A model generated the notes under the pieces. The model was not told the DNA's origin. It searched no databases and saw only the letters and a program-made list of their open reading frames with translations. The translations under genes were made by a program, and so were the position numbers. Below are positions 19,856 through 28,707 of a stretch of DNA of 64,000 nt, in pieces. The stretch is taken from contig CAILCG010000017.1 in the NCBI GenBank assembly GCA_903832665.1, positions 62,001 through 126,000 on the forward strand. Direction: 5' to 3'. How positions within the stretch are numbered: position 1 is the first letter of the stretch; each line of letters opens with the position of its first letter. Source of the stretch: an uncultured Methanomicrobiales archaeon. GTDB lineage: Archaea > Halobacteriota > Methanomicrobia > Methanomicrobiales > Methanospirillaceae.

Positions 19856-19893
19856 ATAATACCGGGCAACGGTTTATCCGAGGGAATTTGACA

Positions 19894-21924
19894 ATGACCG
19901 ACGTTGAGTTGGCAATAAAAAAGGGAGAATCCCAATTAAAAGCCGAAATAACGAAAATTGAGGGAACTTTTTCTTATGAAGATACTGCCTATCATCTCCC
20001 CATCTCCTACGCACTTACGGGAATTCCGGTGTATGACCGGATTACGTCGCTGGATGTATTTTCCCGTACAAAAGATAACCCCCTGGTAGCTTCCGAGTGT
20101 ATTCTCGCCAAGGAGACGGCGCAGGAAGGAAAAGAGGTATCTCCCTATACCGGTTTTATCGGGGATTCGATCATAAGGAAGCTCGGATATTCTCTTGTCG
20201 ACGGCAGTATTCTGGGTCTGGCACTCATAGTCGGGTCTCCAAAAAGTTCCGGCACAGCAGCTGCGATCTGCCGCGAACTTCAGGAAAAATATATGCTTAC
20301 CTTCCTCGCGGGTCCTGTCGTTCCATCGTTATCTTCTGCCGGAGTGAAACTGGGTCTCGATTATCGCCTCATCCCTCTGGGTTCAAAGACATTGCACGGG
20401 GTCCACTTTGTCGACATCATCGCACGAGTCGCCATGATGTTTGGAGGAGTGACCCCCGGTGACATAAACCGGCTTCTTACCTATGCTGCAGAACGGGCAA
20501 AGGCCATAGTCATTGTTTTTCCCGGTCTCTCTGATGAAGAGATTGCTCTGGTTGATGGCATGAGGGTACTTGGGTTTCCCATCCTCTCGCTCGGAGATTA
20601 TTCCGGGGGAGCATGGATACCATCAACTCCGGAGGAGATCGTCAGTACTGGCATGGAATCAAAGGGCATCCGGGTCAATGTAACCGCTATTCCGATTCCC
20701 ATGGGTTGTTCCCCCGCATTTGAAGGGAAAAGTATCCGGAAAGAGGAGATGTACGTTGAGTTTGGTGGTGGTCGATCACCAGCATTTGAACTGCTCTGCA
20801 TGAAAAATTCAAACGAGATCGTTGACGGACAGGTGACTGTTATTGGTCCCGAGATCGATTCCATGGTCGAAGGGAGTGCAAACCCGCTGGCAATTATCAT
20901 CGAGGTTGCCGGCAAAACCATGAAAAAAGATTATGAACCGGTTCTCGAGCGAAGAATTCATAATTTTGTCAATTATGGCGAAGGGTCATGGCATGTCGCC
21001 CAACGGGATCTCATCTGGGTCAGATTGTCAAAAGAAGCAGTTGCAAAAGGAGTGAAGATCGAACATCTCGGAAAATTACTGGCAAGTAAATTCCGGATGG
21101 ACTTCCCCCAGCTGCTCGATGCAGTTTCGGTTACGCTCATTACCGACAAGGAAAAAGTTTTGGCTGCGAAGAAGGAAGCAGAACTGGTCTATGAGGAGCG
21201 GGATGCACGTATCAAAGGTATGAGGGATGGTGACGTCAACATCTATTATTCCTGCACACTCTGCCAGACATTTGCACCAAACCATGTATGTGTTATTACT
21301 CCGGAACGCCCGGCACTCTGTGGTGCTATCAGCTGGCTGGATGGCAAGATCGCGTACGAGATGTCACCTTCCGGTGCAAACCAGCCGATTGAAAAAGGAC
21401 CCGAGATCAATGCACAGAATGGTGAATTCGAAGGGGTTAACCGGTTTGTGAAGAAGGCCAGTCACGGAGAGATCGATCGGTGCTCTCTCTATAGTGTCAT
21501 GGAATATCCGATGACCTGTTGCGGATGTTTCGAATGCATAGCCCTGATGCTCCCGGAAGTAAACGGTATCATGGTTGTGAACCGTGAGTTCAAAGGACTC
21601 ACTCCCTCGGGCATGTCATTCTCTACTCTTGCCGGCACCATTGGAGGGGGAGCGCAGACACCGGGTTTTGCAGGAATATCAAAAGGGTATATTCTTTCTG
21701 ACAGGTTCTTACAAGGAGAGGGAGGAATAGAGCGCCTTGTCTGGATGCCCGCTCAACTCAAAGAGGAACTCAAATCCCGCTTGTCAAAGAAACTTGCGGA
21801 GCAGGGAAAACCTGACCTGTTTGACAAGATCGCTGATGAGACAAATGCAGCTACGATAGAAGACCTCATGGTCTATATGGACCGCATAAAACATCCGGCC
21901 CTCACCATGAAACCCCTGGTGTGA
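19894..21924 (+). CDS. acsB: Acetyl-CoA synthase, bacterial-type AcsB
   Basis: This 676-residue enzyme would assemble or cleave acetyl-CoA from CoA, a corrinoid-bound methyl group and CO. The A-cluster is intact: Cys454, Cys457, Cys466 and Cys476 for [4Fe-4S], and Cys543-Gly-Cys545 for the distal Ni. The 89-residue spacing between Cys454 and Cys543 equals that in Moorella AcsB. Unlike the usual archaeal CdhC, it keeps the large N-terminal CO-dehydrogenase-facing domain (DTAYHLP, YTGFIGDSIIRKLG, MMFGGVTPG), though this is about 50 residues shorter than in Moorella (compared from memory). The ATG at 19894 has GAGGGA upstream; the TTG at 19888 is less likely. It is first in a six-gene operon lacking CODH. 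Transfer from bacteria is inferred. Confidence 0.93.
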   Translation: MTDVELAIKKGESQLKAEITKIEGTFSYEDTAYHLPISYALTGIPVYDRITSLDVFSRTKDNPLVASECILAKETAQEGKEVSPYTGFIGDSIIRKLGYSLVDGSILGLALIVGSPKSSGTAAAICRELQEKYMLTFLAGPVVPSLSSAGVKLGLDYRLIPLGSKTLHGVHFVDIIARVAMMFGGVTPGDINRLLTYAAERAKAIVIVFPGLSDEEIALVDGMRVLGFPILSLGDYSGGAWIPSTPEEIVSTGMESKGIRVNVTAIPIPMGCSPAFEGKSIRKEEMYVEFGGGRSPAFELLCMKNSNEIVDGQVTVIGPEIDSMVEGSANPLAIIIEVAGKTMKKDYEPVLERRIHNFVNYGEGSWHVAQRDLIWVRLSKEAVAKGVKIEHLGKLLASKFRMDFPQLLDAVSVTLITDKEKVLAAKKEAELVYEERDARIKGMRDGDVNIYYSCTLCQTFAPNHVCVITPERPALCGAISWLDGKIAYEMSPSGANQPIEKGPEINAQNGEFEGVNRFVKKASHGEIDRCSLYSVMEYPMTCCGCFECIALMLPEVNGIMVVNREFKGLTPSGMSFSTLAGTIGGGAQTPGFAGISKGYILSDRFLQGEGGIERLVWMPAQLKEELKSRLSKKLAEQGKPDLFDKIADETNAATIEDLMVYMDRIKHPALTMKPLV

Positions 21925-21931
21925 TACTATC

Positions 21932-22888
21932 ATGGCTTATGATCTGCATTTTGACTGGAGCAGCTCGATAACGGAAGTTATGCTCGGAGCCACAAAAGCC
22001 GAGGGGGGAACCCGGAGACTCTCGTACCGTATTGGTGGAGGAACAACGCTTCCCTTCCTGGAAACAACACAAGGTTCATCAGCCCCGCTCATTGCCTTTG
22101 AGATCTGCGATAACCCCCAGTACTGGTCCCCGATTGTCCGGAATTATTGCGGGGATCTGGTAAATGACTGTGGAGAATGGGCAAAAACCGCTGATTCTGG
22201 TTATGGGTCGGATATGATTCGCCTGTACCTGACCAGCACACGCCAAAGGAATTTTTCTGATATTCCCTCCGTGGGAAAGACCGTAGAATCTGTCCTGTCC
22301 AATACCAGTCTTCCCCTCATCATTGAGGGGAGTAACGAACCCAAAATTGACAGCGAAGTTTTCTTAAAATGCGGAGAAGCGGGTCAGGGTGAGCGCCTGT
22401 TACTGGGGACAGCTGAAGCGGGCCGGTACCGCAGTATTGCAGCTGCCGCGATGGCATACAATCATTCAGTGATTGCGCAGTCCCCTATCGATGTCAATCT
22501 GGCGAAACAACTCAATATCCTGTTAAAGGAGATTGGCCTGTCCCGCGATCATATCATCATCGATCCGTACACCGGCTCGCTTGGTTACGGGTTTGAGTAC
22601 TCTTATTCCGCCATGGAGAGGATTCGCTTCTCCGCACTCAAAGGGGATACAGATCTTGCCATGCCGATCATCTGTTCTGCTGTCGATACCCTGACCGTAA
22701 AGGAAATCAGGGAAGCAGGACCCGCAATCCAGGATGATATTGCAGTCCAGTGGGAGTTCACGACTGGCCTTGCAGCAGCGATCGCCGGTTCAGAGATCAT
22801 CTGTGTACGGCATCCAAAAACTATTCCACTTCTCAGAAAAGCGTTTGCAAGCCTAAAATCCGGAAAAAATACAATCGGAGGGCAGTGA
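21932..22888 (+). CDS. acsD: Corrinoid iron-sulfur protein small (delta) subunit
   Basis: This 318-residue protein is the TIM-barrel small subunit that pairs with AcsC to form the corrinoid iron-sulfur protein, the methyl carrier for acetyl-CoA synthase. Recognisable stretches are LIAFEICDNP, IEGSNEPKIDSEVFLKCGEA, DHIIIDPYTGSLGYGFEYSYS and VQWEFTTGLAAAIAGSEI. It starts seven bases after acsB and is followed almost at once by acsC, as in bacterial acs clusters. It has no membrane segment and its length is normal. Archaeal equivalents are called CdhD; the choice of symbol here follows the bacterial style of the operon. Confidence 0.92.
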   Translation: MAYDLHFDWSSSITEVMLGATKAEGGTRRLSYRIGGGTTLPFLETTQGSSAPLIAFEICDNPQYWSPIVRNYCGDLVNDCGEWAKTADSGYGSDMIRLYLTSTRQRNFSDIPSVGKTVESVLSNTSLPLIIEGSNEPKIDSEVFLKCGEAGQGERLLLGTAEAGRYRSIAAAAMAYNHSVIAQSPIDVNLAKQLNILLKEIGLSRDHIIIDPYTGSLGYGFEYSYSAMERIRFSALKGDTDLAMPIICSAVDTLTVKEIREAGPAIQDDIAVQWEFTTGLAAAIAGSEIICVRHPKTIPLLRKAFASLKSGKNTIGGQ

Positions 22889-22889
22889 T

Positions 22890-24224
22890 ATGGCTCTCAA
22901 GGCACTTGATATCTACAAACTTCTGCCCAAGAAAAACTGTAAGGAATGTGGCGATCCCACCTGTCTGACATTTGCCATGAAACTTGCCGGGGGAAAAACC
23001 GATGTGGATCTCTGTCCGTACATGGATGATGCAGCCAAGGCGGTTTTAAGTGCAACTACCCGGCCGCCAATAAGGCTCGTGAAACTTGGGATTGGGGAGC
23101 GATCCTTTGCAGTGGGCGAAGAGTTTGTTCTCTACCGTCACGAAAAGACATTTTATCACCCCCCGGGAATTATGTTCAAAATCGCCGATACATCTACCCC
23201 GGAAGAGATTCTGGCAGTCACCGTGCGAGTCCGGGATGAATCCTTTACCCGGGTAGGTACAGAGCTCAGGTTCAACGGTATTGCTATTGAAAATACAAGC
23301 GGCTCTCCGGAGCACTTTGCCCGGGCAATTGAAACAATAGAAAAAACCGCGGATCTACCGCTTGTCCTGATGGCTTCGGATCCTCTGGCCTTGTCGGCAG
23401 CACTTACTTTTTGTGGAACCTACCGGCCGTTAATTCATGCTGCGACACCGGAAAATTATAAGGAATTCTGTGCTATCGCAAAACAGCACGGTTGCCCGCT
23501 GGTCATTAAAGGAAAGAGTGTCATTGAACTTGCCCAACTCTCCAAGGATTGTACAACTGAAGGGGTACAGGATCTTATTATGGATCTTTCCCCGGAATCA
23601 TTTCAGGAGTTTATCGTCCGTTCTACCACTATACGGCAGCTTGCCATCACTCGTGAGGCTCCCGATCTCGGGTACCCGGTGTTTCTCGATGCATCCGTAA
23701 TGGAGATGCAGGATGCCGCAATCACCCTGGGTATCTCGAAATATGCATCCGTAATCATTTCAACACCACTTCCTTCAGCAACAGCACAAGCGGCACTGAC
23801 GCTCCGCCAGAATATTTACACCGATCCCCAGAAGCCGATCCAAATGAACCCGGGCCTGTATCGCGTTGGGAATCCCGGTAAGAATGCCCCGGTCCTCATG
23901 ACCGTGAACTTCTCACTCACCTTCTTCACCCTGCAGGGATATCTCGAATCAACCCGCCTGCCCTGTTTCATGCTGATCGTAGACACTGAAGGATTGTCTG
24001 TCCTCACCGCAGTTGCTGCGGGAAAACTGAGTGAGGTGCTGGTAAGAGATTCGATCAAGAAATTCGATGTTGAAAATGAGGTATCCCACCGGAAACTCAT
24101 AATTCCCGGATACGCGTCCCCGCTTTCGGGGCGGATCGAAGAGGCTACCGGATGGAAAGTAATGGTCGGACCCCGTGACGCAGCCGAGATAGGGGAATTT
24201 TTGCACGAGGAGTGGAAACAATAG
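22890..24224 (+). CDS. acsC: Corrinoid iron-sulfur protein large (gamma) subunit
   Basis: This 444-residue protein has an N-terminal [4Fe-4S] motif, NCKECGDPTCLTFA followed by VDLCPYM (four Cys within residues 16-41). A TIM-barrel domain and a C-terminal cobamide-binding domain (from about residue 320, with VNFSLTFFTLQGYLES and LSVLTAVAAGKL) follow. It carries the methyl group on cobalt and receives it from methyl-tetrahydro(methano)pterin or returns it. GGAGGG precedes the ATG, one base after the acsD stop. Archaeal name: CdhE. Confidence 0.93.
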   Translation: MALKALDIYKLLPKKNCKECGDPTCLTFAMKLAGGKTDVDLCPYMDDAAKAVLSATTRPPIRLVKLGIGERSFAVGEEFVLYRHEKTFYHPPGIMFKIADTSTPEEILAVTVRVRDESFTRVGTELRFNGIAIENTSGSPEHFARAIETIEKTADLPLVLMASDPLALSAALTFCGTYRPLIHAATPENYKEFCAIAKQHGCPLVIKGKSVIELAQLSKDCTTEGVQDLIMDLSPESFQEFIVRSTTIRQLAITREAPDLGYPVFLDASVMEMQDAAITLGISKYASVIISTPLPSATAQAALTLRQNIYTDPQKPIQMNPGLYRVGNPGKNAPVLMTVNFSLTFFTLQGYLESTRLPCFMLIVDTEGLSVLTAVAAGKLSEVLVRDSIKKFDVENEVSHRKLIIPGYASPLSGRIEEATGWKVMVGPRDAAEIGEFLHEEWKQ

Positions 24225-26126
24225 ATGCGAACGGTCACTTTCCTCCCAAGTTATCGAAAGATTGAGATCGCCCGGGGGAGCACCATCCTGGATGCAGCCC
24301 AGCGAGCCGGACTGAACATGAATGTAGTGTGCGGCGGTCAGGGAAAATGCGGCAAATGCATTGTCTATGTCCAGTCAGGAAAAACAACGTTTGACGGGCA
24401 GAAATACGGACGATTCTTTACCGATGATGAACGTTCCCGGGGTGCCTGCCTTGCCTGCGAAACCTCAATTGAAAGCGATGTGCAGGTGTTTGTTCCCGAG
24501 AGCACCTTGATCCAGGAACAGAAGATCCTTATTGACGGACAGGAGACTGCAATCGAATTCCATCCGTCGGTCAGGAAATATTATGTTGAACTGCAGCCCC
24601 CTTCACTTTCTGACCCGTCGCCGGATCTTTCACGGTTACTCTGGGGAATCCAGAAAAACGGGGGGCCGACTGCAGAAAAGATGTACGTTCCCTTAGAAGT
24701 GCTCCGGGAAATTCCGGCAATCCTGCGTCATTCCGAATGGAAATCCACCGGGACAATCGCACTCGTCCCGGGAGGTTACCGCCTGGTGGACCTGCAGGAA
24801 AATGACACCTCAAAAAGGCTCTATGGCGCGGCAGTTGACCTGGGCTCGACAACGATTGTCGTGTATCTCTGGGATCTGGTCTCGGGCAAAGTTGCAGGTG
24901 TTGCTTCGAATTATAACCGGCAGATCAGTTGCGGGGAGGATATTTTAGCCCGCGTGAATTTTGCCCGGAAGAACGGGCTTGCAAAACTCCAGACCCTTGC
25001 TACTGAGAGTATCAATGCTGCTATTACCTCCGCATCAAATACTGCAGGTATTGACCGGGAAGATATCTACGAAGTAGTAGTGGCAGGAAATACCGTAATG
25101 ACCCATATGCTGCTCGGAATCGACCCGGCTTATATGATCGCGGAGCCTTACGTTCCGGTAGTCCGGAGGGCACTTTCAGTAGCTACCGGAAGAATTGGTA
25201 TTGCCTGCAATAAAAACGGGGGACTCTTTGTCTTTCCGGCAGTAAGCGATTTTATCGGCGGGGATATCATTGCCGATATTCTTGCCTGCGGAATGAGCGA
25301 GAAAGAAGAGATCTCTCTCCTCATTGATATCGGGACCAATTTCGAAGTAGTACTCGGCAACAGCGAATGGATGTTCTCCTGTGCCGGTGCCGCGGGTCCC
25401 GCACTTGAAGGCGGGGAGGTACTCTTTGGCATGCGGGCAAACCCGGGTGCGATTGAGAAAATTACCATTGAACCCGGGATGCTGACTCCTGCATTTTCTA
25501 CGATAAATGGTATAAAACCCCGGGGGATTTGCGGATCCGGCCTGATTGACCTCCTGGCAGAACTCCTCAGCACCTGTGTCATCGACCGTACCGGGCGTAT
25601 CAACACCGGGATTGAAAATCCACGGATACGCACCACCGGACACTTCCCGGAATACGTTGTTGCATGGGCAAACGAGACTGATATTGGCAAAGATATTGTG
25701 ATCACAGAAAATGACATCAAGAACCTCATCATGAGCAAGGCATCGGTCCATGCGGCCTGCCTGACCCTGATGAAACAAGCCGGAATAACCCGCCGTGAAA
25801 TTACCACCATTTATTTTGCCGGCGCATTTGGCAACTATATCAACAAAAACAATGCAACCATCATTGGCCTCATACCTGAGATTAACATTGACCAGATCAT
25901 CAACATCGGTAATGGCGCAGTTACCGGTGCAAATATTGCCCTCATCAACCGGAGGAAAAGAAAAACCCTGGATGAGATCGCCTACCGGATTGCCTATATC
26001 GAACTCAACGCAGAAGCCTCATTTATGGATGAATATACTTCCAGCACATTCCTCCCCCACACGGATCTGACCCTCTTTCCCCGGGTCCAGAAAATGCTGG
26101 ATACCTGCCGGGTGGCAAAGAGGTGA
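24225..26126 (+). CDS. acsV: Reductive activator of the corrinoid iron-sulfur protein (AcsV/RACo)
   Basis: This 633-residue protein has an N-terminal [2Fe-2S] ferredoxin domain (VCGGQGKCGKCIVYV with a later ACLAC, within about residues 35-85), a linker, and a large ASKHA ATPase domain starting near residue 200 (AVDLGSTTIVVYLWDL). The latter includes VVAGNTVMTHMLLGIDP, LLIDIGTNFEVVLG and GAAGPALEGGEVLFGMRA. Such proteins use ATP to drive an electron onto inactive Co(II) of the corrinoid protein. It begins directly after the acsC stop, which suggests translational coupling. The length matches bacterial RACo. Confidence 0.92.
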   Translation: MRTVTFLPSYRKIEIARGSTILDAAQRAGLNMNVVCGGQGKCGKCIVYVQSGKTTFDGQKYGRFFTDDERSRGACLACETSIESDVQVFVPESTLIQEQKILIDGQETAIEFHPSVRKYYVELQPPSLSDPSPDLSRLLWGIQKNGGPTAEKMYVPLEVLREIPAILRHSEWKSTGTIALVPGGYRLVDLQENDTSKRLYGAAVDLGSTTIVVYLWDLVSGKVAGVASNYNRQISCGEDILARVNFARKNGLAKLQTLATESINAAITSASNTAGIDREDIYEVVVAGNTVMTHMLLGIDPAYMIAEPYVPVVRRALSVATGRIGIACNKNGGLFVFPAVSDFIGGDIIADILACGMSEKEEISLLIDIGTNFEVVLGNSEWMFSCAGAAGPALEGGEVLFGMRANPGAIEKITIEPGMLTPAFSTINGIKPRGICGSGLIDLLAELLSTCVIDRTGRINTGIENPRIRTTGHFPEYVVAWANETDIGKDIVITENDIKNLIMSKASVHAACLTLMKQAGITRREITTIYFAGAFGNYINKNNATIIGLIPEINIDQIINIGNGAVTGANIALINRRKRKTLDEIAYRIAYIELNAEASFMDEYTSSTFLPHTDLTLFPRVQKMLDTCRVAKR

Positions 26127-26132
26127 CGGATA

Positions 26133-27173
26133 ATGGCAAAAATGATTCCCTCTCCCCATTCAGATGCAACCGGTGTCGGTGCACTTCCCCATAAAAATTC
26201 ACGGGAAGCGTGCCAGGATGTCCTGGAAATCTTTCCATCGTTTCCCTATATCCCAACGTTACCTGATCGGGGACAACTGGAAAGTATTGTTTTCAATGAT
26301 TCCGAACAATTACCCGGAAGAATCATTCGCGATGATCGTCTCCTCTTTGACAGTTCTACGGATCAGACAGCCGCAATGGAACAGGTTTACATGGATTATG
26401 TGGTGGAAAATTTCTCCTCATATCCGCTCCACGAAAATTACGCATCCGCATTTATTGAGATGATGTCGCATGATCTCTCGCAGGTCAGCATATTAAAATT
26501 TCAGGTTACCGGCCCGGTCACGTTCGGGATGCAGGTGGTGGATGCAAATAAGCGTCCTATCTATTATGACACACAGCTTGCAGATGTTCTTGCAAAAATG
26601 CTGGCACTAAAAGCCCGCTGGTGCGAAGTTGAGATGCAAAAAAAGACCGGAGTGAGAGAGACCCTGATTGTACTCAACGAGCCATATCTTGCATCCCTCG
26701 GTTCTTCAGTAGTACCGGTAGACAAAGAAACAGTAAGATCCAGTTGGGAGGATATTGCCTCGCTGGTTCAGGGAGGGTTGGGCATCCATTGCTGTTCGAA
26801 TACGGACTGGGAGTTTGTCCTTGGGCTCAACCCATCGGTAGTATCTCTTGATGCCTATGCTACGGCAAAAGAATTTCTCCTTTACGCCGGCAGCATAACC
26901 GGATATATGGAACGGGGAGGAGTAGTCGCATGGGGCATTGTTCCCGCTGATTCACGTATCTATGTGACAGAGACGACAGATTCCCTGTACAGGAAATACA
27001 TGGATATCCGCTCGCAGCTCTGCAAATGTATGCCGGAAGACCTTTTCGATGCCCAGTCACTCATAACACCGAGTTGCGGAATCCGGTTTGCGGATCGCTC
27101 CTCTGCCTGTGCAATCATGCGGACAACGGCAGAAATATCACATCGTGTAAAAAAGGAAAGCGCGGATACCTAA
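26133..27173 (+). CDS. Core (folate-independent) methionine synthase, MesB-like
   Basis: This 346-residue protein corresponds to the C-terminal catalytic barrel of cobalamin-independent MetE without its folate-binding half. The zinc ligands are visible: GIHCCSN (His-x-Cys type, near residue 215), Glu in the central part, and the final TPSCGIRF near residue 310, matching the PDCGL motif of MetE. An N-terminal VGALPHKN resembles the homocysteine-binding region. Core synthases of the MesB family take methyl groups from the corrinoid iron-sulfur protein; here the gene sits six bases after acsV within the acs operon, which supports that donor. An alternative is a related methylcobamide:thiol methyltransferase. 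Confidence 0.8.
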   Translation: MAKMIPSPHSDATGVGALPHKNSREACQDVLEIFPSFPYIPTLPDRGQLESIVFNDSEQLPGRIIRDDRLLFDSSTDQTAAMEQVYMDYVVENFSSYPLHENYASAFIEMMSHDLSQVSILKFQVTGPVTFGMQVVDANKRPIYYDTQLADVLAKMLALKARWCEVEMQKKTGVRETLIVLNEPYLASLGSSVVPVDKETVRSSWEDIASLVQGGLGIHCCSNTDWEFVLGLNPSVVSLDAYATAKEFLLYAGSITGYMERGGVVAWGIVPADSRIYVTETTDSLYRKYMDIRSQLCKCMPEDLFDAQSLITPSCGIRFADRSSACAIMRTTAEISHRVKKESADT

Positions 27174-27185
27174 ACAGGTTTTGTC

Positions 27186-27950
27186 ATGCTCAACCGACCA
27201 TATACCATTGTCGTCTCAGGAAAAGGCGGAACAGGTAAGACTACACTCAGCTCTCTTCTTGTCCGTTCATTTATCGAAATGGGAGAAAAACCCGTGCTTG
27301 CGGTTGATGCAGATCCCAATGCAAATCTCCATGAAGCACTTGGGGTAACCATTCATGAATCCCTCGGAAGTATGCGGGAAGAGGCATTCACCCGGAAGAT
27401 CCCCCCGGGTATGAACCGTCATGATTATGTCCGGTTCAGGTTTCGACAGGCACTTGTCGAATCGGAAGGTTTCGATCTTGTTGCCATGGGCAGACCCGAA
27501 GGGAGCGGATGCTACTGTTTTGCCAATGATCTGCTGTCCGAATGTATGACAGAATTGGAGCGGGAATACCGGTTTATTGTCATCGACACGGAAGCGGGTA
27601 TGGAACATATCAGCCGGGGGACCATCGGGAAACCGGATATGCTTCTGATTGTCAGTGATCCCGGAGCACGCGGCCTGCGTACGATAACACGGATACGTGA
27701 AATTGCCACCCAGCTGGGGTTGGAGCCGGAAAAGATTCACATTGTTTTCAATAAATACAAGACCGTAACTGCACCCGTTGATATCGGAACAGAATTCCCT
27801 ATTGCCTTACTTCCTGATGATCCCGAAGTGGAGGCTGCGGACCTCGCTGCAACACCAGTCTCACAGATTCCCGCAAAGAGTCCTGCCCGGATCGCAGTGC
27901 GTGACCTTGCAGAAAAGATTCGTTCCATGGCAATAGCCCGCACAAAATAA
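27186..27950 (+). CDS. CooC/AcsF-type nickel-insertion ATPase
   Basis: This 254-residue MinD-like ATPase has a deviant P-loop (VSGKGGTGKTTLSS, residues 10-23), AVDADPNANLHEALG (switch I), the GCYCFAN metal-binding CxC typical of CooC proteins, VIDTEAGMEHISRG, and VFNKYK for nucleotide specificity. CooC matures the Ni cluster of CO dehydrogenase; the homologous AcsF inserts Ni into the A-cluster of acetyl-CoA synthase. Because no CO dehydrogenase gene is present here, the AcsF role is the more economical reading. It is last in the operon, 12 bases after the methionine synthase gene. Confidence 0.9.
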   Translation: MLNRPYTIVVSGKGGTGKTTLSSLLVRSFIEMGEKPVLAVDADPNANLHEALGVTIHESLGSMREEAFTRKIPPGMNRHDYVRFRFRQALVESEGFDLVAMGRPEGSGCYCFANDLLSECMTELEREYRFIVIDTEAGMEHISRGTIGKPDMLLIVSDPGARGLRTITRIREIATQLGLEPEKIHIVFNKYKTVTAPVDIGTEFPIALLPDDPEVEAADLAATPVSQIPAKSPARIAVRDLAEKIRSMAIARTK

Positions 27951-28164: not shown

Positions 28165-28707
28165 TTAAAGGAAGACTGCCACAGCAATAGTGGTCGTCCA
28201 GAGGCCGTTCTTGTCACCCTCCGCGGATTGGCAGACATGTTTTGTCTTGATTATTTTACCACTTGCCTTATAGATCTGTTCACGTTCCTGCCACGCAAGG
28301 CTTGCATCGAATTTGATACCAAGGGTAGTGGCAAGCATGGTGGCTGCAAGGTCTTCTGCATATTCTCCGGTCTTTTCCTGGGTTTCACCATATGCATGAT
28401 GTTCGGAGAGATACCCATAATCTTCCACTTCCTTAGGCAGCGCAAGACCAATGGCAGAGGATACCAGACGGTTGGGTTCATTGGTATCATTCCGGGCCAT
28501 AACGCAGAACGTTATCCCCCCGGGAAGAAGTTGAGCTAACCCATCAGATTTACAGATCTGTTTGCAGTTGGGGGGAAATATGCTCGAAACATACACCAGG
28601 TTGCACTTCTCTATCCCGGCCCTTCGTAATGCCAGCTCAAATGAGGCAAGACGGTCTTTATGGACACCTACACCTTTGGTGAAAAATATCCTGGTCGGAA
28701 CAAACAT
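28165..28707 (-). CDS. pdaD: Pyruvoyl-dependent arginine decarboxylase
   Basis: This 180-residue proenzyme cleaves itself to make a pyruvoyl group and converts arginine to agmatine, the first step of archaeal polyamine synthesis and the source of agmatine for tRNA-Ile2 agmatidine. The self-cleavage site is the VSSIFPP motif (Ser41-Ser42); other family segments are [39 protein letters not shown] and [13 protein letters not shown]. The length is normal. It lies alone, about 6 kb from the homospermidine synthase operon. Confidence 0.95.

Follow-up and report, generated by a model that had tools for sequence, protein, structure and literature searches.

The window analyzed here, a stretch of 64,000 nucleotides from contig CAILCG010000017.1 of an uncultured archaeon of the order Methanomicrobiales (family Methanospirillaceae), contains an operon of six genes, acsB-acsD-acsC-acsV-mesB-acsF, which encodes a bacterial-type acetyl-CoA synthase (ACS) together with a corrinoid iron-sulfur protein, its activator, a nickel-maturation ATPase and a MetE-barrel methyltransferase, and which includes no carbon monoxide dehydrogenase (CODH). 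The content and gene order of the operon are conserved across the order, AcsB and MesB are coupled in their occurrence and independent of CODH genes, residues lining the CO tunnel of AcsB are replaced, and both the A-cluster of AcsB and the zinc site of MesB are intact. We tentatively read this, with slightly less than even confidence, as an order-wide CODH-independent pathway, in which a tunnel-closed ACS dedicated to cleavage would hand the methyl group of acetyl-CoA to a corrinoid and from there to a thiol, with release of CO.

All six genes lie on the + strand between positions 19894 and 27950, with spacers of 7, 1, 0, 6 and 12 bases, in keeping with the original prediction of a co-directional unit with gaps of at most 12 bases:

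acsB, 19894..21924, + strand: bacterial-type three-domain acetyl-CoA synthase of 676 amino acids (aa), assigned from NF040764, a phmmer search of the PDB, Foldseek with an AlphaFold2 (AF2) model and a residue table
acsD, 21932..22888, + strand: small subunit of the corrinoid iron-sulfur protein (PRK04452.1-2, 357 bits; PDB 4djd_D, 215 bits)
acsC, 22890..24224, + strand: large, corrinoid-binding subunit of the corrinoid iron-sulfur protein with an N-terminal iron-sulfur domain (PRK04165, 549 bits; PF04060)
acsV, 24225..26126, + strand: reductive activator of corrinoid protein (RACo) of the ASKHA/RACo type (PF14574, PF17651, PF17650, PF00111; NF040756, 550.5 bits)
mesB, 26133..27173, + strand: core MetE-barrel methyltransferase without the folate domain, 346 aa (AF2, Foldseek, zinc ligands)
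acsF, 27186..27950, + strand: P-loop ATPase of the ACS nickel-maturation type (bit scores against bacterial AcsF and CooC; PDB CooC 3kje, 71.7 bits)

The acsB open reading frame (ORF) opens at a TTG at 19888, and its homologues begin at the ATG at 19894. The profile cut-offs were 800 bits for NF040764, 280 for PRK04452.1-2, 306 for PRK04165 and 800 for NF040756; the AcsV score thus falls under a strict cut-off, and its RACo domains are full-length. The sixth protein, originally put down as a CooC/AcsF ATPase, scored 170–200 bits against bacterial AcsF and 74–92 bits against bacterial CooC, and since these scores favour AcsF, the CooC half of that assignment was rejected.

The same gene order recurs across Methanomicrobiales, which places the operon far beyond chance: it was kept in every sufficiently long locus, in five family-level groups, and is seen in named Methanoregula, Methanolinea and Methanoculleus metagenome-assembled genomes (MAGs). 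Contigs named as Methanospirillum stop before acsF, with L142 extending to mesB. Exceptions to the order comprise a few loci with an insertion or a wider gap, and L071 and L072, where acsF does not follow mesB. In one Methanoregula MAG an insert of about 3 kb separates acsC from acsV (L123:14330-17377).

The N-terminal domain of bacterial-type AcsB was found in 114 and MesB in 112 of the 232 Methanomicrobiales genomes searched, totals on which the co-occurrence tally and the direct search counts agree, and every mismatch between the two proteins traced to an incomplete assembly. In the 135 high-quality genomes they occurred together in 63 and apart in none; the genomes are related, and these counts are not independent events. 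One congener (G182) has neither AcsB nor MesB and does have CdhA and CooS, as expected if the two were lost together. CdhA was missing in 32 of the 63 high-quality operon genomes and both CdhA and CooS in 10, including one that is a single contig and 99% complete (G056), so the operon's system must be able to work without any CODH. There was no association between AcsB and CooS (Fisher p 0.72) and a positive one between AcsB and CdhA (odds ratio 6), perhaps for phylogenetic reasons. With large fragments counted, the CdhA and CooS sets comprised 70 and 121 genomes, against 62 and 111 at cut-off. Outside the order, an even sample of 393 genomes from across the phylum showed the AcsB N-terminal domain in one other family only. 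Group f7/g41, a different family within the phylum with six genomes, has a bacterial-type CODH joined to a bacterial-type AcsB as a single ORF of about 1,380–1,395 aa, at L200:8167-12297 (-), L199:5247-9377 (-) and L201:6591-10775 (+), the frame of a further fusion (L202) being broken near its end; acsD and acsC come next, acsF and acsV are divergent, and the tunnel residue Ala222, discussed below, is retained. A link between the operon and the acetate requirement of Methanospirillum hungatei JF1 (Mhun_0686-0690) was rejected, as the genome taken as JF1 (G197) carries the archaeal Cdh locus but lacks the operon.

The coupling of AcsB to MesB bears on where the methyl group comes from. Methionine could be synthesized from a pterin donor, with methyl-tetrahydromethanopterin feeding AcsCD and AcsCD feeding MesB, while AcsB would only return or remove methyl groups. 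That archaeal CdhDE complexes accept the pterin methyl directly is textbook knowledge. AcsCD has, moreover, been proposed as the MesB donor by Price et al. (PMC7857596). Under such a scheme, however, there would be no need for AcsB or acsF, and still AcsB stays with MesB in 63/63 high-quality genomes; MesB is also missing wherever a genome has CdhA but not AcsB, which ties its occurrence to AcsB rather than to the corrinoid protein of the archaeal complex. We consider pterin-fed synthesis very unlikely.

AcsB of the window matched NF040764 over residues 7–678 with 910.7 bits, a full-length match above cut-off, and Carboxydothermus AcsB with 637 bits in the PDB search, and its AF2 model superimposed on the whole bacterial ACS (CODH/ACS subunits) with template modelling (TM) scores of 0.83–0.86. 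As originally claimed, the protein has the bacterial N-terminal domain and the 89-residue A-cluster spacing. This domain aligns to that of Moorella and Carboxydothermus, though it is shortened: operon AcsB lack about 22–28 residues at the N-terminal start and about 22–24 around Moorella positions 80–101, and archaeal CdhC has no such domain. The A-cluster cysteines (C456, C459, C468, C478, C545 and C547, counted from the TTG) are invariant in both AcsB alignments and lie each exactly 50 positions below C506/509/518/528/595/597 of the Moorella A-cluster.

In the AcsB tree the operon sequences formed one clade (99/99), sister to the bacterial and CODH-fused archaeal forms, with CdhC apart (100/100). 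The AcsC tree repeated this pattern, the operon clade being sister to bacteria; AcsD formed its own operon clade, whose placement was unsettled. These topologies indicate that operon AcsB is not derived from CdhC, an origin that was accordingly rejected and that the original prediction had proposed checking by such a tree. The trees contained 12–14 bacterial sequences, picked as closest matches, and relative to this small sample operon AcsB and AcsC are sister and not nested. A bacterial origin of the operon is thus plausible from the trees, while transfer, as put forward originally, did not find support. Among the matches listed, the closest named AcsB loci were those of Methanoregula and other Methanomicrobiales MAGs (82–91% identity); among the best 80 matches listed, the nearest bacterial AcsB had 43–46% identity, and among the best 80 of one contig scan there was no Dehalococcoides AcsB.

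In bacterial CODH/ACS, CO travels from CODH to ACS via a hydrophobic tunnel whose walls are made of small residues. One position that has been used for blocking this tunnel is Ala222 of Moorella (numbering checked against 1oao_C). All 13 bacterial and all 4 CODH-fused archaeal AcsB have Ala at this position, and the residue is bulky in all 82 operon AcsB (Ile 46, Leu 28, Val 8). Further changes are A218 to Phe and A225 to Val (each in 79/82) and I146 to Tyr (82/82). In bacteria the gating-helix position 146 ranges over Ile, Leu, Val and Thr (PMC12289521), so the operon Tyr is outside this range. The engineered Carboxydothermus variants A225L and A268M (8cmw, 8cjb) carry, according to PDB sequences and titles, A to L at the equivalent of 222 and A to M at the equivalent of 265. 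Positions 265 and 269 were dropped as discriminators, as their bulky residues in operon AcsB are matched by Ile/Val in the CODH-fused controls; the discriminator is therefore 222 only, backed by 218, 225 and 146. Since the 82 sequences belong to a single clade, the replacements represent one evolutionary change and not 82. Of the alcove residues, I146 is the changed one, and G145, V149 and F229 are the same in 82/82; F229 is required for tight CO binding and not for methylation (PMC11321310). With F229, V149 and G145 kept and the tunnel residues bulky, the CO site appears to be retained and the connection to CODH closed; that the tunnel is physically blocked we infer from the residue identities.

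These features also speak to whether AcsB is a spare subunit acting inside the archaeal CODH/ACS or with CooS. CdhA is indeed also present in 31 of the 63 high-quality operon genomes, but the tunnel residues are bulky even in operon AcsB of genomes with CdhA or CooS, the CODH-side N-terminal segments are shortened, and the operon is kept in genomes without any CODH. We regard this role as highly improbable.

The fifth protein had no Pfam match and scored 18.8 bits to NF002119. Its AF2 model (predicted local distance difference test, pLDDT, 94.6) gave MetE and the core methionine synthase 3RPD (MesD) as top Foldseek matches, and it corresponds to a single MetE catalytic barrel, the folate domain being missing. 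The zinc ligands His219, Cys221, Asp240 and Cys315 are invariant in 64/64 operon MesB, and the MetE-type barrel named in the original prediction is thus borne out by the predicted fold and the intact zinc site. Identity to bacterial homologues is 24–33%, and ‘MesB-type’ is used here as a label of resemblance. A MesB tree was left out of account, as its MesA rows L096 and L097 had been translated in the wrong frame. An internal TGA in a few MesB matches was considered as recoding and rejected; in the one case compared (G082/L045), the match apparently overruns the normal stop into the overlapping acsF.

The window's genome (2.88 Mb, 98.8% complete) was probed by targeted searches for the remaining components. 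There was no CooS or CdhA match at the operon and no CODH in the 64 kb window, as claimed. For the genome the claim fails: contig C16 carries an archaeal CODH/ACS locus with CdhA, B, C, D and E and an activator (CdhA occurring nowhere else in the genome), and CooS gave no match above cut-off genome-wide. AcsE, reported absent from the window, was not found in the genome either, since the sole Pterin_bind protein, rejected as AcsE, is flanked by FolD- and CofE-like ORFs and looks like a dihydropteroate synthase. Contig C28 encodes a MesA-type methionine synthase. The genome therefore holds both a complete CODH/ACS locus and a second methionine synthase, a combination that the original prediction had named as refuting it, and the operon is neither the only CODH/ACS nor the only methionine route of this organism. 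This does not settle what the operon does; the comparative data support a CODH-independent module coupled to MesB.

With no AcsE, AcsB is the only methyl loader encoded with AcsCD, and we put the following self-contained chain at about an even chance. AcsF would load nickel into AcsB, whose A-cluster would cleave acetyl-CoA, passing the methyl group to the AcsCD corrinoid protein and releasing CO and CoA. AcsV would re-reduce corrinoid that has become oxidised, and the zinc-dependent MesB would, through contact with AcsCD, transfer the methyl group to a thiol, most likely homocysteine, yielding methionine. The CO tunnel would be closed because no CODH docks. Cleavage is the favoured direction, since a pterin source leaves AcsB and AcsF superfluous and synthesis leaves CODH-less genomes without a CO source of their own. 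The original interpretation of a transferred, methionine-supplying methyl module is thereby partly supported: its CODH-free, MesB-coupled character agrees with the complete co-occurrence, the 10 CODH-less genomes and the lost tunnel residue.

Several points weigh against this chain. Methanogens possess methyl-tetrahydromethanopterin, a cheaper source of methyl groups, and ACS is reversible, so that synthesis from dissolved CO is open to it. Unlike what defines a Dehalococcoides-type pathway, this genome is not CODH-less, being one of the operon genomes that have CdhA. Archaeal operon loci have no adjoining CODH save in L069 and L036, from two genera, where a CooS-type CODH and a CooC-like ATPase lie about 2–4 kb past the operon (L069:15826-17937 (+), L036:1730-3682 (-)); residue 222 of the AcsB beside them is still bulky. 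The operon could serve CO assimilation, with AcsCD methylated from methyl-tetrahydromethanopterin, AcsB adding dissolved CO, whether from the environment or from CooS or CdhA, to give acetyl-CoA, and MesB acting as a side outlet. The A-cluster and the alcove Phe229 are kept, a tunnel-blocked ACS can still use CO from solution (PMC12289521), and CooS or CdhA is present in many operon genomes, in two loci within a few kb of the operon. However, 10/63 high-quality operon genomes have no CODH, the lack of association between AcsB and CooS stands against the complete association of AcsB with MesB, and there is no AcsE for methyl loading. CO assimilation is in our view unlikely, though a real possibility.

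The acceptor is the weakest point of the proposed cleavage chain, because MesA is nearly universal and the residues equivalent to MetE Asp599 and Ser433 are mostly replaced. MesA-type PF01717 proteins occur in 216 of the 232 genomes, this one included, so methionine need not come via the operon. The Asp599 equivalent is Asn or Ser in 55/64 operon MesB and Asp in 9/64 (Asn182 in the window) and the Ser433 equivalent Ala or Gly in 51/64 and Ser in 13/64 (Ala17 in the window), while the bacterial homologues hold the Asp599 equivalent in 9/9. The same chain might therefore end on another thiol, for example coenzyme M, which methanogens contain as a matter of textbook knowledge: MesA would cover methionine in nearly all genomes, and most of these MesB have other residues where MetE has the Asp and Ser that hold the amino acid moiety of homocysteine. 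Yet this homocysteine-contact pair is kept in some operon MesB (those of L071, L061, L062 and L060), in a bacterium that has no coenzyme M, MesB acts as methionine synthase (PMC7005905), and coenzyme M has no direct support, which makes another acceptor quite unlikely. Price et al. describe the Ser433 and Asp599 equivalents as ‘mostly conserved’ in MesB and not obligatory (PMC7857596). In the proposed chain, homocysteine probably serves as the acceptor.

Among known systems, the operon resembles that of Dehalococcoides mccartyi in combining AcsB, AcsC and AcsD with a core MetE and in having no CODH or AcsE in the unit. According to Price et al. (PMC7857596) and Deobald et al. 2020 (PMC7005905), D. 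mccartyi has AcsBCD without CODH or AcsE together with MesB (a core MetE), and the methionine methyl comes from acetate. There, it is the sole methionine route and MetF is missing, whereas the archaeal operon hosts have methyl-tetrahydromethanopterin and MesA; the archaeal version also differs in being one operon that includes AcsV and AcsF. The bacterial CODH/ACS operon (Moorella, Carboxydothermus and the Bacillota loci L163-L177) has homologous AcsB, AcsC, AcsD, AcsV and AcsF (about 35–46% identity) and the same A-cluster, but carries acsA directly upstream of acsB, while the archaeal operon has mesB and no acsA. CODH was directly upstream of acsB in 12/12 bacterial loci with upstream sequence; of the others, it was downstream in L170, and L173 was cut off. 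The archaeal CdhA-E complex shares a homologous catalytic C-terminal ACS part (42%) and corrinoid protein (32–34%), but its CdhC has no N-terminal domain and accompanies CdhA/B, and operon AcsB and AcsC belong to separate clades. The Methanoregula formicica genome paper reports only the ACDS (acetyl-CoA decarbonylase/synthase) complex, for anabolic CO2 fixation (PMC4155587). Clusters of mesB with acsCD in methanogens, and some Methanomicrobiales with both MesA and MesB, were noted by Price et al. 2021 (PMC7857596), whose accessible text describes acsC, acsD and mesB and says nothing of AcsB being bacterial in type, of a unit of six genes, of genomes with no CODH, of strict co-occurrence or of tunnel changes. 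A targeted, partial literature search, made outside subscription papers, turned up no account of these six genes as a unit, of the genomes with no CODH or of the altered tunnel. A pyruvoyl-dependent arginine decarboxylase, judged by eye, may be encoded 3' of the operon (28165-28707, - strand) and is apparently unrelated to it.

The usual view of acetyl-CoA synthase is that it cannot be separated from CO dehydrogenase and the gas tunnel between them. Here, a whole lineage keeps the ACS catalyst, apparently closes the tunnel and couples the enzyme to a methyltransferase, which provides a natural test case for the role of the ACS tunnel. An automatic annotation as acsB or cdhC in Methanomicrobiales is consequently no proof of CO2 fixation. 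If the operon does work in the direction of cleavage, some hydrogenotrophic methanogens would make methyl groups from acetate and not from their own C1 pathway, and CO would be released within the cell.

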